DNA of 64,000 nucleotides from Gemmatimonadota bacterium (GTDB lineage Bacteria; Gemmatimonadota; Gemmatimonadetes; Gemmatimonadales; GWC2-71-9): the NCBI GenBank assembly GCA_009692185.1, contig SHZT01000002.1, positions 97,455 to 161,454 on the forward strand, read 5' to 3'. A program made the position numbers and the translations under genes. Below the pieces are notes generated by a model. The model did no database searches. It was not told where the DNA came from and worked only from the letters and a program-made list of their open reading frames with translations. This document shows, piece by piece, positions 45,700 to 51,187 of this stretch; the first letter of the stretch is position 1, and every line of letters begins with the position of its first letter.

Positions 45700-46167
45700 C
45701 TACCTCACGATCAACGCCGCGATCCCCGCTTTCGCGACCTGGGCATCTTGCGCAGACGTGCCTCCGCTGACGCCAACGGCGCCGATGGTCTGGCCATCTA
45801 CGACGATGTTGACCCCACCCTCCAGAGGAAAAGCGTCCGAGGCAAGGAACTGCACGCGGCCAGCCGTCACCATCGAGTCGAGGAGCCTGGTTTCCCGCTG
45901 GTAGCGCGCAGCGGTGCGCGCCTTGGCGAGCGCGAAGTCCACGTTGGACGGCCGGGCGCCGTCACCCTTGTGAAACAGGACCAGCCCGCCCGCCGCATCG
46001 ACGATCGCGTACGCCATGTTCCAGCTGTTCTTCTTCGCTTCCGCCTCGGCCGCGTTGACGATATTCTTGGCGCCTTCGAGTGTCAGGACCTTGGCGTCGC
46101 GGACCTGGGCGGGGGCGTTGGTGGCGCTGAGCAGGAGCAGAGTGGTGAGCAGAGTGACTCGTCGCAC
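45700..46167 (-). CDS. Exported GlcG/HbpS-family protein
   Basis: A 155-residue protein with a signal peptide (RRVTLLTTLLLLSATNAPAQ). The GlcG/HbpS core has NSWNMAYAIVDAAGGLVLFHKGDGA, the helix ALAKARTAARYQRET and the closing GGVNIVVDGQTIGAVGVSGG. HbpS binds heme; other members are of unknown role. GTG 46167 is preceded by GGGAGG six bases away, which favours it over the earlier ATG. Confidence 0.88.
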   Translation of the reverse strand: MRRVTLLTTLLLLSATNAPAQVRDAKVLTLEGAKNIVNAAEAEAKKNSWNMAYAIVDAAGGLVLFHKGDGARPSNVDFALAKARTAARYQRETRLLDSMVTAGRVQFLASDAFPLEGGVNIVVDGQTIGAVGVSGGTSAQDAQVAKAGIAALIVR

Positions 46168-46292
46168 GTTAGACCTCCCAGATGGGACCGACATGGTCCA
46201 GGACACACTACTAGGGTACGGAGAAAGGGATACTGTTGGCACTTCCGTGGCCGCCTCCGGTTGCCGGGATGCGGCGCGCCGGGCCAGGAGAC

Positions 46293-47057
46293 TCAGTCGC
46301 TGGCGGGCGGCTTGCCGGCTTCCGAAACGTATGGCTGCCGCAGATGCACCGCCGCGGCCCGGGCCCGGACACGCAGATTCAACATCTCTACGCCCAGGGA
46401 AAACGCCATCGCGAAGTAGATGTAGCCCTTCGGGATATGGCGATCGAGGCCCTCGCCGATGAGCGCGACTCCGATCAGCAGCAGAAAGCTCAGAGCCAGC
46501 ATCTTGATCGTCGGGTGCCGTTCCACGAACTCGCTGATCGCCCGAGCGAACACCAGCATGGTCCCGACGGCGATGACCACCGCCGCGACCATCACCGCGA
46601 CCTCCTCCACCATGCCGACGGCCGTGATCACCGAATCGAGCGAGAAGACGATATCGAGCAGCACGATCTGGGTGAGCACGCTCCGCATTGAGGGCCGCAC
46701 GCGAAGGGATTTCTCTCCTTCCTCGCCCTCCAGCCGATCGTGCATCTCGTGGGTGCTCTTCGCGATCAGGAAAAGACCACCGACCAGCAGGACCAGATCG
46801 CGACCCGAGATGTCGTTCGACAGGACCGTGAAGAGCGGGCTCGTCAGACGAATGATCCACGCCAGGGACAGCAGCAGCGCGATCCGCATGAGCATCGCGA
46901 GGGCCAAGCCAAGCTTCCGCGCCCTCTCGCGTTCTTCCGGCGCGAGCTTTCCAGCGAGAATGGAGATGAAAACGACGTTGTCGATGCCCAGAACAACTTC
47001 GAGGGCCGTAAGCGTCGTCAGGGCAATCCAGATTTGCGGATCACTCAGCCAGTTCAT
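46293..47057 (-). CDS. TerC-family integral membrane protein
   Basis: A 254-residue protein with about seven helices. The TerC signature ALEVVLGIDNVVFISILAGKL is at the start, and the second acidic motif LLDIVFSLDSVITAVGM in the middle. Family members affect tellurite resistance or export Mn2+ to metalate secreted enzymes. ATG 47057 is chosen because the family begins at this point. Confidence 0.92.
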   Translation of the reverse strand: MNWLSDPQIWIALTTLTALEVVLGIDNVVFISILAGKLAPEERERARKLGLALAMLMRIALLLSLAWIIRLTSPLFTVLSNDISGRDLVLLVGGLFLIAKSTHEMHDRLEGEEGEKSLRVRPSMRSVLTQIVLLDIVFSLDSVITAVGMVEEVAVMVAAVVIAVGTMLVFARAISEFVERHPTIKMLALSFLLLIGVALIGEGLDRHIPKGYIYFAMAFSLGVEMLNLRVRARAAAVHLRQPYVSEAGKPPASD

Positions 47058-47146
47058 AGTTGCTCGGTTGTCAGAAGTGCGGTCGGAACCTGGATTCGAC
47101 TTCCTCAATCTACGCGAACACCTTTCCGCTTAGGCGCTTTCGGGCG

Positions 47147-47152
47147 TATTAT
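47147..47152 (+). promoter_or_regulatory. -10 box of a likely leaderless mRNA
   Basis: TATTAT lies seven bases before ATG 47160, so transcription would start at or next to the start codon. No Shine-Dalgarno is visible. A clear -35 box is not seen. Confidence 0.45.
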
Positions 47153-47159
47153 AGCGCGC

Positions 47160-48167
47160 ATGAGCCGACTCCCCGCGGCCTTGATGGGCCTCGCCATCGC
47201 CATCGCCGCCGCCAACCCGGCGCTGGCCCAGAACCAGCTCCAGCTCCGCCTGACCCCGGAACGCCTCCAGCTCAAGAGCGGTGAGCGGGCGGCCGTCGTG
47301 GTCACGGCGAGCACCAACGACGGCAGTCCCGTTCCGGCCTTCGCGCTGACGTGGACCTCGACCGACACCGGAGTCGTCCAGGTGGAGGCCGACGCCGAGT
47401 CCCCGGAAGTGGGGCGCCTCGTGGCCGGGCATGCGGGCACCGCCGTCGTGCAGGCGGTCTCCGGGCCGGTATGCGGCTTCGTCGCGGTCCGGGTGGAGGC
47501 GGCCCCTGCCGCTCCGCCGACGCCGCCTCCCCCGCCGGTCCGGCGATCGATTGACCTTCCTGCGATCGCCCAGGCGAATCGCGAGGCCGTCGCCCTGGTC
47601 ACCATGTGGGCCGGCCCCGAGAGCTTCGATGCGACGGGCTTCGTGATCTCGCCTGCCGGGTACCTCGTCACGACGCGCTCGGCGGTCAGTCGCCAGGGAC
47701 TGAACGCCGATTCAGTGCTGGTAACGCTGTCTGACCGGCGCGAGTCCCAGCGCGCCGACATCCTGAACGTGGGAGAGGTTGGCGTTGACCTGGCCGTGCT
47801 GCGGGTGCGGGACTATCACGGCCCGTTCGTCCGCCGGGTGGACTGGTCTGGCAACCGCGTACGGCAAACTGAGCCGGCCGCCGTCATCGGGTTCCCGGGC
47901 GGCGCTTCACGCGCGCTCGATGCAACGGGCGTCCCTCACGCCTCGATCTATGGCGGGACTTTCAACCTCGTCTCCCCCGAGCGCCTGCAGTACGACGCCC
48001 TCACGTCTCCGGGATCGGGCGGGAGCCCGGTCTTCAACGCCGACGGCGACGTGGTCGGGGTGCACCGCGCCAGAATGTCTGACGGGTCTACCGGTATCGG
48101 CGTCCCGATTGGAGATCTCGTCCGCCTGATGCCGCCAGGGCTCAAGGCAGAACTGGGAATCAATTGA
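47160..48167 (+). CDS. Exported trypsin-like protein lacking the catalytic His
   Basis: A 335-residue protein with a signal peptide (about 1-22), a bacterial Ig-like domain (about 30-110), a Pro-rich linker and a trypsin/HtrA-like domain. The Asp motif VGVDLAVLRV and the Ser motif SPGSGGSPVF are present. The His motif is altered: GFVISPAGYLVTTRSAVS, where proteases read T-x-R-H-V-V. It is probably a binding protein, not a protease. Confidence 0.8.
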   Translation: MSRLPAALMGLAIAIAAANPALAQNQLQLRLTPERLQLKSGERAAVVVTASTNDGSPVPAFALTWTSTDTGVVQVEADAESPEVGRLVAGHAGTAVVQAVSGPVCGFVAVRVEAAPAAPPTPPPPPVRRSIDLPAIAQANREAVALVTMWAGPESFDATGFVISPAGYLVTTRSAVSRQGLNADSVLVTLSDRRESQRADILNVGEVGVDLAVLRVRDYHGPFVRRVDWSGNRVRQTEPAAVIGFPGGASRALDATGVPHASIYGGTFNLVSPERLQYDALTSPGSGGSPVFNADGDVVGVHRARMSDGSTGIGVPIGDLVRLMPPGLKAELGIN

Positions 48168-48202
48168 CGTCCAGTCCGGGTGACCTTAAGTTCTCCAGCA
48201 CA

Positions 48203-48292
48203 ATGACTTGCTGCCGCTCACTGTGCCTGTGCTGCTGTCCCTGCCCCTGTTGTATGCCAAACCGGGGGAGCAGCCATTTGGTGCGTGATTAA
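48203..48292 (+). CDS. Poly-cysteine leader peptide (29 residues)
   Basis: The peptide begins MTCCRSLCLCCCPCPCCMP and ends with a hydrophilic tail of ten residues. It has nine Cys codons between residues 3 and 17. In actinobacteria, short ORFs with poly-Cys runs act as cysteine-responsive leaders upstream of sulfur genes. Here it lies 43 bases before a perfect hairpin and upstream of a flavin-reductase remnant, an ATP-grasp enzyme and an FMNH2-dependent monooxygenase. No strong Shine-Dalgarno is seen. The call rests on composition and context. Confidence 0.65.
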   Translation: MTCCRSLCLCCCPCPCCMPNRGSSHLVRD

Positions 48293-48334
48293 GAAGGAAT
48301 AGGAATCGGGCAGACGCCCACGCAAGCAAGTCCA

Positions 48335-48373
48335 AATCGGCCGCGACCCTCGAGCAGAGAGTCGCGGCCGATT
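48335..48373 (+). terminator. Perfect hairpin downstream of the Cys leader (attenuator candidate)
   Basis: A 13-bp perfect stem (AATCGGCCGCGAC / GTCGCGGCCGATT) with a 13-nt loop (48348-48360). No T-run follows, so it may be a Rho-dependent or translation-linked control element rather than a simple terminator. Confidence 0.6.
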
Positions 48374-48436
48374 CGCGTTACGAACGCAGGTGCACGGCGA
48401 GGTGCCCCATGGAACCGACCACTGAACGCGCGGCGC

Positions 48437-48702
48437 TCATTTCAGGCGGACGCGCTCGAAGGGAAGGTCGGCATCCCGATTCTCACTGGCGGCAGCCTCG
48501 CGCACCTGCTGGCGCTAGATCACAGTTTCCGGCCCCCGTTCGCCTCCATCGGGGCCACGGTCGTCTCGGGCGGCGTGTACGGCTACGACGCTCAGTTCAG
48601 GTCGGGTGGGCCCGATACGGCATTGTCGAACTGGTAGATCGTGCAGTGGAAGAAGCCGTGGCGCTGGCGCGGGCCGGCGCCGAAGCAGTCGCGAAGCACT
48701 AG
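48437..48702 (+). pseudogene. NADPH-dependent FMN reductase (SsuE-like) remnant
   Basis: One frame reads ALEGKVGIPILTGGSLAHLL, ALDHSFRPPFASIGATVVSG and GVYGYD, the C-terminal half of SsuE-like flavin reductases, to a TAG at 48635. The next frame then continues with the final helix LVDRAVEEAVALARAGAEAV and stops at 48702, so there is a frameshift. The N-terminal FMN-binding half is missing. The intact enzyme would have supplied FMNH2 to the monooxygenase downstream. Confidence 0.7.
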
Positions 48703-48711
48703 AGAGGAATC

Positions 48712-49671
48712 ATGGCAGCCACGAAAGAACGTCCGATCGCGATCTACTACGAGCACCCCGACTGGTACCGGCCGCTGTTCGCGGAGCTGGACCGCCGGGG
48801 AACGCCGTACGTGAAGGTCCACGCCGCCCGGCACCGGTTCGACCCGACGGCCGAGGTACCCTACTCGCTGGTGTTCAACCGCATGAGCCCATCGGCATGG
48901 CTGCGCGGGAATGGGCATGCGATCTTCTACACGCTCCAGTACCTCCAGCACCTGAAGACGCTGGGCGTACGTGTGGTGAACGGATACGACGCGTTCGTCA
49001 CCGAGACGTCCAAGGCCTACCAGCTCTCGCTGATCCACAACCTGGGCCTTCCCGCGCCCGCGGCGCGCGTGGTCAACCACGCGGAGGAGGTTCCCGCCGC
49101 CGCTGATGGCCTGCGATTCCCCATCATCGTGAAGCCGAACATCGGCGGCAGCGGCGCGGGCATCCGGCGGTTCAACACGCCCCAGCAGCTAGCCGAGGCC
49201 GCGAAGAACGGCGGGTTCGACTTCGGCATCGATCACACGGGCATCGTGCAGGAGTTCATCCCCCAGCAGGACGGGCGGATCGTCCGGGTCGAAGTGCTGG
49301 GCGGCTGCTACCTCTACGCCATTCGGATTTACACCCCGGGCGACTCGTTCAACCTCTGCCCCGCCGATGTCTGCCAGACCGTGGGTGGTGAGGAGCTGGT
49401 TCGGGCCGCGTGCCCCGTGGACGCACCCAGGAACCAGCTCAAGGTCGAGGGCTACACGCCGCCCGCCCAGCAGATCATGGACGTGGAGCGCATCATGCAG
49501 GCTGCCGGCATTGAGGTGGGCGGCATCGAGTACTTCGTGGATGAGCGCGACGCCAAGCTCTACTACTACGACGTCAACGCGCTGTCCAACTTCGTGGCCG
49601 ATGCACCCCGCGTCGTGGGCTTCGATCCGTTCGTCCGGCTGGTCGACTATCTCGAGCAGGAGGCCTCGTGA
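48712..49671 (+). CDS. ATP-grasp enzyme (RimK-like)
   Basis: A 319-residue enzyme with an ATP-grasp domain in the second half: FPIIVKPNIGGSGAGIRRF is the Lys- and Gly-rich ATP loop, IVQEFIPQQDGRIVRVEVLGG a metal-side strand, and GIEYFVDERDAKLYYYDVNAL the Mg ligands. Such enzymes ligate a carboxylate to an amine or thiol through an acyl phosphate. ATG 48712 follows AGAGGA by four bases. Its stop overlaps the monooxygenase start, so the two are coupled; the product is unknown. Confidence 0.85.
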   Translation: MAATKERPIAIYYEHPDWYRPLFAELDRRGTPYVKVHAARHRFDPTAEVPYSLVFNRMSPSAWLRGNGHAIFYTLQYLQHLKTLGVRVVNGYDAFVTETSKAYQLSLIHNLGLPAPAARVVNHAEEVPAAADGLRFPIIVKPNIGGSGAGIRRFNTPQQLAEAAKNGGFDFGIDHTGIVQEFIPQQDGRIVRVEVLGGCYLYAIRIYTPGDSFNLCPADVCQTVGGEELVRAACPVDAPRNQLKVEGYTPPAQQIMDVERIMQAAGIEVGGIEYFVDERDAKLYYYDVNALSNFVADAPRVVGFDPFVRLVDYLEQEAS

Positions 49672-50762
49672 CGATGCGGTTCGGGTACTGGCTCCCGGTC
49701 TTCGGCGGGTGGCTCCGCAACGTGGACGACGAGCGCATGGCGGCCACATGGGAATACGTGAGCCGCCTGGTGACGCGGAGCGAGGAGATCGGGTTTGACG
49801 TCACGCTCATCGCGGAGCTGAATCTCAACGACATCAAGGGGATAGACGCGCCGTCACTGGACGCCTGGAGCACCGCGGCGGCGCTCGCGGCCATCACCCG
49901 GAAAATCGAGCTCATGGTGGCGGTGCGGCCGACGTTTCACGAACCGGCGCTCCTCGCCAAGCAGGCGGCCAACATCGACCACGTATCGCGCGGCCGTCTC
50001 ACGATCAACGTGGTTTCGTCGTGGTGGAAGGAAGAGGCGCGGCAGTACGGCACCCAGTTCGACGAGCACGACCAGCGTTACGCCCGTACGTCGGAGTGGC
50101 TGGACGTGGTGGACGGCCTGTGGTCCAAGCCCCGGTTCTCACACGCCGGCAAGTTCTACAACGTCGAAAACACCATTCTCGAGCCGAAGCCGGTGCGGAA
50201 GCCCCGGCCCACGATCTACGCGGGTGGGGAGTCGCCCGCGGCCAAGGACCTCATCGCCCGCAAGTGCGATGCCTACCTCATGCACGGAGACCCACCGGAA
50301 CGGATCGGCCAGAAGATCGCCGACATGCGCGCCCGTCGCCTGACGACCGGCCTCGGTCGCATGAAGTACGGCCTGGCCGGCTACGTGGTATGTCGCGGGA
50401 CGACCCGCGAAGCGAACAAAGAGGTGGCGCGCATTACCGACGTCAAACAGAACGCCAAGGGTTACGCGAACTACCAGGATTGGCTCTCGAACACGAAGCT
50501 CGAGCAGAAGGTGTCGCTCGAGGACTACTCGGTGTCGAACCGCGGCCTGAAATCAGGTCTCGTCGGGACGCCCGAGCAGATCGCGGACCAGATCCGTGCG
50601 TTCGAGGACGCCGGTGCGGAATTACTGCTCTTGCAGTTCAGTCCCCAGCTGGAAGAGATGGAGCGGTTTGCGGAAGAGGTGATTCCGCTTGTCCGCCAGG
50701 GCTCGGGGCCGGCGACGGTACCGCGGCGCGAACCGGCGACGGTTGGAGGGAGTAAGAAGTGA
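49668..50762 (+). CDS. FMNH2-dependent monooxygenase (LLM class, SsuD/SfnG-like)
   Basis: A 364-residue luciferase-like TIM barrel. Motifs are FGYWLPVFGGWL at the start, DHVSRGRLTINVVSSWWKEEARQYG and KPRPTIYAGGESPAAKDL, typical of the alkanesulfonate (SsuD) and dimethylsulfone (SfnG) monooxygenase branch. It would cleave C-S bonds to free sulfite for growth when sulfur is scarce. GTG 49668 overlaps the ATP-grasp stop; ATG 49674 is an alternative. The flavin-reductase partner upstream is broken. Confidence 0.88.
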   Translation: MTMRFGYWLPVFGGWLRNVDDERMAATWEYVSRLVTRSEEIGFDVTLIAELNLNDIKGIDAPSLDAWSTAAALAAITRKIELMVAVRPTFHEPALLAKQAANIDHVSRGRLTINVVSSWWKEEARQYGTQFDEHDQRYARTSEWLDVVDGLWSKPRFSHAGKFYNVENTILEPKPVRKPRPTIYAGGESPAAKDLIARKCDAYLMHGDPPERIGQKIADMRARRLTTGLGRMKYGLAGYVVCRGTTREANKEVARITDVKQNAKGYANYQDWLSNTKLEQKVSLEDYSVSNRGLKSGLVGTPEQIADQIRAFEDAGAELLLLQFSPQLEEMERFAEEVIPLVRQGSGPATVPRREPATVGGSKK

Positions 50763-50812
50763 GATGTAAGAAGTGACAAGGGGTTCGTCTCCTTCTCACT
50801 TCTCACGTCTCA
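50752..50812. repeat. Inverted intergenic repeat between convergent genes
   Basis: The left arm AGTAAGAAGTGAGATGTAAG and the right arm CTTCTCACTTCTCACGTCTC are inverted copies built from AGAAGTGAG-like units, with a short loop. It probably forms a terminator-like hairpin for both genes. Confidence 0.7.
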
Positions 50813-51187
50813 CTGCCCCTTTGTCCTCCAGACCTGGACCTTCGGTCCCTCCCCCACGTAGCTGTTCGCCAGCCCGCCGATAATCCCCACGATGATCGAC
50901 GCCTGGATCGCCGTCATCAGGCCGCCGACGTGGAATGACGGCATCATCCACGCCACCAGGTAGATCATCAGGCCATTGATCACGAACAGAAACAGGCCGA
51001 GTGTGAGCAGGGTGAACGGGAACGTGAGGAAGATGAGAATCGGTCGCACGATCGCGTTGACGAACCCCAAAAGGAGGGCGCCGAGGAACAGCGGTGCCGC
51101 GCCGTCGAAGCTGATCCCGTCAAGCAGCATGTCGGCGAGCCAGAGGCCGAACGCGGTTATGACCAGGCGGGAGACGAACGTTTTCAC
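50810..51187 (-). CDS. Phage-holin-family (four-helix) membrane protein
   Basis: A 125-residue protein of the mycobacterial-type phage holin family 4 / YvlD-like group: helices near 5-25, 30-47, 55-78 and 95-115, with the conserved segment LLLGFVNAIVRPILIFLTFP. The family is common in chromosomes and not a sign of prophage. GTG 51187 lies six bases after a TATACT box, so the mRNA may be leaderless. Confidence 0.85.
   Translation of the reverse strand: MKTFVSRLVITAFGLWLADMLLDGISFDGAAPLFLGALLLGFVNAIVRPILIFLTFPFTLLTLGLFLFVINGLMIYLVAWMMPSFHVGGLMTAIQASIIVGIIGGLANSYVGEGPKVQVWRTKGQ

Follow-up and report, generated by a model that had tools for sequence, protein, structure and literature searches.

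A conserved cysteine-codon leader as a probable transcription attenuator of ATP-grasp/flavin monooxygenase operons in Gemmatimonadota and Acidobacteriota

The classical trp, his and leu attenuators of Proteobacteria combine a run of regulatory codons with mutually exclusive antiterminator and terminator structures. For cysteine, leader open reading frames (ORFs) have been predicted in Actinobacteria, where the Cys codons lie close to the stop and a conserved terminator hairpin is absent (PMC1262725), and cysteine-responsive attenuation by leaderless polycysteine small ORFs (sORFs) in mycobacteria is credited to Canestrari et al. 2020, as cited in PMC9094748 and PMC13236596. In Rhodobacterales (alphaproteobacteria), the predicted cysS attenuator uORFC-8-2, an upstream ORF (uORF), carries two tandem Cys codons and occurs exclusively upstream of cysS (PMC8632094). 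Almost no attenuators of Acidobacteria have assigned functions (PMC2965389), and our literature search yielded no described amino-acid leader peptide or Cys leader for Gemmatimonadota or Acidobacteriota. Here we describe a Cys-rich leader ORF in a 64,000-nucleotide stretch of a Gemmatimonadota genome (assembly GCA_009692185.1, contig SHZT01000002.1, positions 97,455 to 161,454 of the forward strand; hereafter the window), located upstream of an SsuE-like flavin reductase remnant, an ATP-grasp ligase gene and a gene for a luciferase-like flavin monooxygenase (LLM). Judged from the comparison with related loci, the element very likely belongs to a family of ribosome-mediated transcription attenuators reading the supply of charged tRNA-Cys, perhaps that of methionine as well.

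The leader ORF of the window carries nine Cys within residues 3-17 of its 29 codons, as a first-pass annotation of the window had described and as translation of the plus strand confirmed. Among the 875 short ORFs of the window the runner-up reached 5 Cys in 15 codons compared to nine in the leader, and none of 51,729 short ORFs from 40 simulated 64-kb sequences contained 7 Cys in 15 codons. The Cys clustering is thus far beyond chance. Close LLM homologues with an adjacent ATP-grasp gene were found in Gemmatimonadota, Acidobacteriota and other phyla, the nearest relatives being metagenome-assembled genomes of Gemmatimonadota; 112 loci collected in this way had enough upstream sequence after de-duplication. 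The best short ORF within 1 kb upstream contained at least 5 Cys in 12 codons at 29 of these loci on the operon strand and at a single one on the opposite strand, which served as control. Scoring as a leader any ORF with at least 3 Cys and a terminator 15-60 nt past the stop, or with at least 5 Cys alone, a short ORF with a Cys run was detected at the equivalent place in 39 of the 112 distinct ATP-grasp/LLM loci, in both Gemmatimonadota and Acidobacteriota, and a terminator at 35. The conservation in relatives on which the first-pass annotation had made its proposal depend is therefore present for the Cys run as well as for the hairpin. Examples are MGCLCCMCNCMCPCQGTAGWRT in the closest relative (L031), MCCHLCCPMCCTGSGRSG... 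in L033 and ...RACACRCCCMCFARGGHGGSSV in the acidobacterial locus L089. In the alignment, the Cys columns alone are invariant or nearly so, and both the N-termini and the tails behind the run vary.

The position of the promoters indicates that these ORFs are translated. In 27 of 33 leaders, the -10 box of the best sigma-70-like promoter ended 5-10 nt upstream of the first in-frame ATG or GTG; the same spacing was observed in 0/33 for each of the other two frames. Since the -10 box lies so close to the start, the leaders probably begin leaderless, as in mycobacteria, and a transcript starting on the start codon, or no more than a few bases from it, would leave no room for a Shine-Dalgarno site. 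The window fits this arrangement with a spacing of 10 nt between its -10 box and the ATG; a start site about 7 nt past the -10 box would fall within a few bases of the ATG and render the ORF leaderless or nearly so. The window promoter scored p = 0.015 against shuffled sequences, and a consensus promoter scan of the window does not list it, its -10 box matching at only 3/6 positions. Codon usage in the runs is likewise distinctive. TGT, a rare codon, is over-used there: it supplies 92 of 189 Cys codons, whereas in the genes downstream its share is 32 of 177 (p 4e-10). Of the non-Cys residues of the runs, 45 of 128 are Met, compared to 14 of 441 residues of the tails (p 7e-21), an enrichment from which it follows that the leader may read the supply of both cysteine and methionine; alternatively, the AUG codons may act as extra starts.

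At 35 loci, a GC-rich stem with a T-run behind it is located 15-60 nt past the leader stop. The next gene after these terminators is either the ATP-grasp gene or an intact SsuE-like reductase gene. For the same 35 loci, we evaluated how strongly the segment past the last Cys codon forms a duplex with the terminator's 5' arm. Pairing was stronger for the native tails than after dinucleotide shuffling (mean z -1.02, Fisher p 7.5e-7), and the pairing segment usually begins no more than about 25 nt from the Cys run. In a swap test on 34 loci, the tails preferred their own terminator over those of other loci (p = 5e-5), and the preference held for the 23 loci with distinct arms (p = 0.0015). Terminator sequences differ widely among lineages (GGCCGCTC, CCTCTCC, CGCTCCGATCC and GGCCGCGACTC) and are accompanied by matching tails (GAGCGG, GGGAGAGG, GGGTCTGGGCG and GGGGAGCGG). 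By these pairing tests, the tail is complementary to the terminator arm of its own locus and covaries with it, as expected of an antiterminator.

The leader was almost exclusively associated with this operon. A blind search of 298 Gemmatimonadota genomes with a leader-peptide profile gave 10 matches at E <= 0.01, nine of which precede an ATP-grasp/LLM pair, and in the genomes of the Acidobacteriota carriers all five matches at E < 0.05 do so; some of the profile matches are the training sequences themselves. No second regulated operon surfaced in either of these blind searches. Because the leader is found almost only there, the operon is marked as a probable response to cysteine shortage. Weaker profile matches (L168-L172 and L202-L204) showed no link to the gene pair and were rejected, as was L195, which likewise lacks it. 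Within the 2.6-Mb genome of the window itself, the peptide profile revealed no second leader while also missing the known one, and the codon pattern CCCxC occurred at 15 sites, below the control count, with the known leader the sole convincing case. Rfam 15 returned no family at the leader region at the gathering score; at E <= 1 it gave just matches far below the cut-off, none of them over the leader. Nor did Rfam report a riboswitch in 17 loci without a leader, so no alternative RNA sensor was found in those 17.

We propose the following mechanism. Transcription would begin on, or immediately beside, the AUG that opens the Cys-rich ORF, and ribosomes would therefore translate the leader without a Shine-Dalgarno site. 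With plentiful cysteine, the ribosome would pass the Cys codons, proceed to the stop and cover the tail, and the GC-rich hairpin with its U-tract would end transcription shortly after. When cysteine is scarce, it would stall within the run and leave the tail exposed; pairing of the tail with the 5' terminator arm would then keep the terminator from forming, and the operon comprising the ATP-grasp and LLM genes, at some loci preceded by the ssuE-like gene, would be transcribed. The ORF and its conservation, the spacing of the promoter, the terminators and the complementarity between tail and terminator can be read from the sequences; that the ribosome stalls, that cysteine is the signal and that the operon serves sulfur scavenging is what we infer.

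With the actinobacterial polycysteine sORFs, the leaders share a short Cys-run ORF upstream of an operon, here one putatively related to sulfur, and, going by promoter position, a leaderless start. They differ in that the run usually continues into a tail, several to about 30 codons long, behind which lies a canonical intrinsic terminator whose antiterminator covaries with it, and in that they occur in other phyla and precede ATP-grasp and LLM genes instead of cys genes. The Rhodobacterales uORFC-8-2 likewise combines a Cys-codon uORF with an intrinsic terminator and transcription readthrough on stalling, the latter being proposed here; its downstream gene is cysS, whereas here SsuE-like, ATP-grasp and LLM genes follow, and the runs are longer than two tandem Cys codons. 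The first-pass annotation had regarded Cys leaders as described in actinobacteria and not in this kind of organism; that agrees with the literature searched as far as Gemmatimonadota and Acidobacteriota are concerned, but the cysS case shows that such leaders are not confined to actinobacteria. The codon run and the mutually exclusive structures are those of the classical attenuators, from which the present leaders depart by probably reading cysteine (perhaps with methionine) and by their apparently leaderless start. The class of mechanism is therefore classical; new are the phyla, the operon, the combination of a leaderless start with an intrinsic terminator, and the Met-Cys runs.

Several observations weigh against this interpretation. 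Under the criteria used, a leader is missing from 73 of the 112 loci that carry the gene pair, and its presence or absence switches at least 13 times on the LLM tree, giving a clustered yet patchy distribution. For these two reasons the leader is not obligatory for the gene pair; it is either old with many losses or was gained repeatedly. By the same criteria, the loci retrieved from the cultured Granulicella, Acidipila and Pyrinomonas have none. The loci are related to one another, which inflates the p-values given above and overstates independence. The blind profile missed the window's own leader, so the sensitivity of that search is limited, and no known cysteine-biosynthesis gene lies within the operon. 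The closest relative, L031, has a terminator and only a weak antiterminator (z -0.43). In the window itself, the hairpin is followed by CGCGTTACG and lacks a U-tract where relatives have TTTTT, and the pairing of tail and arm is not above shuffled sequences (p 0.20-0.28). In a separate observation, loci scored negative for the leader (L154, L152, L070, L057 and L037) often retain a terminator, a short ORF that combines 2-3 Cys with Met or His (such as MPMCMWRHAACM in L152), or both, and some leaders may be decaying or shifting specificity.

The features of the window copy are compiled in Table 1. The perfect 13-bp hairpin and the flavin reductase remnant of the first-pass annotation were both recovered, the former 42 nt past the leader stop, a distance as in relatives. 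An intact SsuE-like reductase gene is present at 19 loci besides the broken copy of the window. The end portion of the latter shares 68% identity over 59 residues with an intact relative of 174 amino acids before the frame shifts; the intact homologue of L031 (L031:2454-2975) matches TIGR03567 at 3e-39, below the family cut-off.

Table 1. Features of the leader region and operon in the window (positions 1 to 64,000).
Feature	Positions	Strand	Details
Candidate sigma-70 promoter	48164-48192	+	-35 TTGACG 48164-48169, 17-nt spacer, -10 TAAGTT 48187-48192
Cys-rich leader ORF	48203-48292	+	29 codons; translation MTCCRSLCLCCCPCPCCMPNRGSSHLVRD, then stop; unique outlier in the window
Regulatory codon run	48209-48253	+	nine Cys codons: six TGC, three TGT
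Position homologous to the antiterminator strand of relatives	48263-48276	+	CGGGGGAGCAGCCA; predicted to pair with the hairpin 5' arm at -17.5 kcal/mol
Perfect 13-bp hairpin, homologous to the terminator stem-loop of relatives	48335-48373	+	arms AATCGGCCGCGAC / GTCGCGGCCGATT, 13-nt loop; U-tract missing
SsuE-like NADPH:FMN (flavin mononucleotide) reductase pseudogene	48409-48702	+	start region (ALISGG) kept, ~80 internal codons deleted, frame shifted
ATP-grasp ligase, RimK/LysX/ArgX-like fold	48712-49671	+	319 amino acids
Luciferase-like flavin monooxygenase (LLM, PF00296)	49668-50762	+	overlaps the ATP-grasp stop by 4 nt

Since the T-run past the stem is missing and the reductase gene has lost codons and frame, the window copy appears partly eroded, and it probably works weakly, via another terminator mechanism, or not at all. 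The first-pass annotation had proposed that stalling at the Cys run couples sulfur supply to the operon: conservation across two phyla together with the terminator, the covarying antiterminator and the near-leaderless promoter speak for a leader that would link charged tRNA-Cys to the operon at the level of the family, and the window copy, lacking the U-tract and an antiterminator above chance, bears it out only in part. The window element may be a decaying remnant in a real family, with the operon now expressed without attenuation, a reading compatible with attenuation in relatives. The missing T-run, the antiterminator pairing at the level of shuffles and the internal deletion of the SsuE-like gene all favor it; the nine-Cys run, its frame, the promoter spacing and the perfect stem are nevertheless intact, pointing to continued selection or very recent decay, and the ATP-grasp and LLM genes are intact as well. 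We regard such decay as a serious contender that falls somewhat short of an even chance. Considerably less likely, in our estimate, is a leader that needs no intrinsic terminator and works instead by Rho-dependent termination or by way of downstream-gene translation, a mode put forward for the cys operons of mycobacteria. It would fit a window copy devoid of a U-tract and has a precedent in Mycobacterium (PMC1262725; PMC13236596), but in most leader-bearing relatives a canonical terminator occupies a fixed position and is matched by an antiterminator, and the window hairpin ends 36 nt before the next start codon and includes no ribosome-binding site.

Turning to the enzymes, ATP-grasp and LLM constitute the only pair conserved throughout, the ATP-grasp gene being found in 113/119 loci. 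The ATP-grasp enzyme, whose presence the first-pass annotation had correctly stated, was modelled with a pLDDT of 90 and is structurally closest to ArgX/LysX and RimK (Z 25-27); compared with ArgX and LysX, Z was 27.4 over 272-275 residues with a root mean square deviation of 2.4-2.5 and a TM of 0.77. It shares the fold of the RimK/LysX-type ligases, yet scores 64.9 bits against TIGR00768 with a cut-off of 143.4 and reaches no curated family cut-off. As VIA-align/Foldseek cannot separate the functions of RimK, LysX/ArgX and D-Ala ligase, no substrate was assigned. Three invariant cysteines, C216, C221 and C234, lie in the least confidently modelled stretch and could possibly form a metal site or a substrate-thiol site.

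The resemblance to ArgX/LysX, whose action is on the carrier LysW, and to PsnB, a ligase of ribosomally synthesized and post-translationally modified peptides (RiPPs), raises the idea that the Cys-rich peptide is itself the product, a RiPP-like or LysW-like precursor or carrier modified by the ligase and the flavin monooxygenase. We consider this highly improbable: Cys number and spacing, N-terminus and tail are unconserved between leaders, the tails vary along with the terminator, most enzyme-bearing loci have no peptide, and the terminator lies between peptide and enzymes. Equally far-fetched is the idea that the Met/Cys-rich nascent peptide senses not the cysteine supply but a metal, for instance Cu(I). 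Alternating Met-Cys runs do look like soft-metal ligands, and a copper-related nascent exported protein with translational control is known (PMC9973294), but the leaders have no visible signal peptide, the over-used rare TGT speaks for decoding speed rather than side chains as the relevant property, and the downstream genes are not metal-handling.

The first-pass annotation had named the monooxygenase an SsuD/SfnG-like, FMNH2-dependent sulfonate/sulfone enzyme. That it is a luciferase-like flavin monooxygenase was upheld; the sulfonate/sulfone role is unproven. Its scores stay below the cut-offs for SsuD/MsuD (TIGR03565, 177.6 versus 518.2 bits) and for the dimethylsulfone monooxygenase SfnG (TIGR04021, 254.2 versus 382.95 bits). 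In MsuD, sulfonate is bound by three residues essential for it, W195, R225 and R296 (PMC8234197). The first two correspond to His206 and Ala237 in the LLM, both invariant across this LLM family, and the equivalent of R296 is ambiguous (Asn291 or Arg292). With two of the three essential MsuD residues replaced, the LLM is, by this alignment, not a canonical sulfonate monooxygenase. The operon, with its organosulfur-type LLM and SsuE-like reductase, has the flavin reductase and group C flavin monooxygenase of the SsuE/SsuD, MsuED and SfnG systems, to which an ATP-grasp ligase is added here.

LLM relatives were also encountered in other gene neighbourhoods. A plasmid operon of Deinococcus deserti (L189 2879-7026) encodes a D-cysteine desulfhydrase, an amino-acid racemase, an ATP-grasp protein of a different subfamily ending in TCAC, and then the LLM relative, with a cysteine synthase family gene about 3 kb downstream; by analogy, this context suggests that the LLM works in sulfur amino-acid metabolism. 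On a plasmid of Spirosoma oryzicola (L188 5986-11218), the ATP-grasp and LLM genes of a related pair lie on either side of two amino-acid permease genes, which hints at an amino-acid-like substrate. The Cys leader was not found at the Spirosoma or Deinococcus operons. Salvage of an amino-acid-like organosulfur compound is a plausible but unproven role for the pair. A fuller picture, which we put forward as tentative and rather doubtful, would be a Cys/Met-codon attenuator of an undescribed two-enzyme organosulfur salvage route, in which the ATP-grasp ligase caps an amino-acid-like sulfur compound and the non-sulfonate LLM cleaves it, the interleaved codons read both sulfur amino acids, and the leaderless poly-Cys form evolved in parallel to that of Actinobacteria.

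In the surroundings of the operon, a trypsin-like/HtrA-type protease gene (46740-48167) ends about 35 nt upstream of the leader ORF, and a protein with an HbpS-like domain is encoded nearby on the minus strand (45700-46860). Between the LLM stop and the convergent gene, an imperfect inverted repeat, GAAGTGAGATGTAAGAAGTGAC ... CTTCTCACTTCTCACGTCTCAC, with a GC content below that of its surroundings was observed at 50752-50815; it is possibly a bidirectional terminator or a small repeat element, and weak Rfam microRNA matches at this place were judged to be chance.

With the proposed cysteine-reading attenuator, two large, mostly uncultured soil phyla gain a concrete, testable amino-acid attenuator. 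Its likeness to the mycobacterial leaderless poly-Cys ORFs, combined with a different downstream mechanism, would represent either deep conservation or convergence, and the Met codons interspersed among the Cys codons suggest that both sulfur amino acids are sensed.

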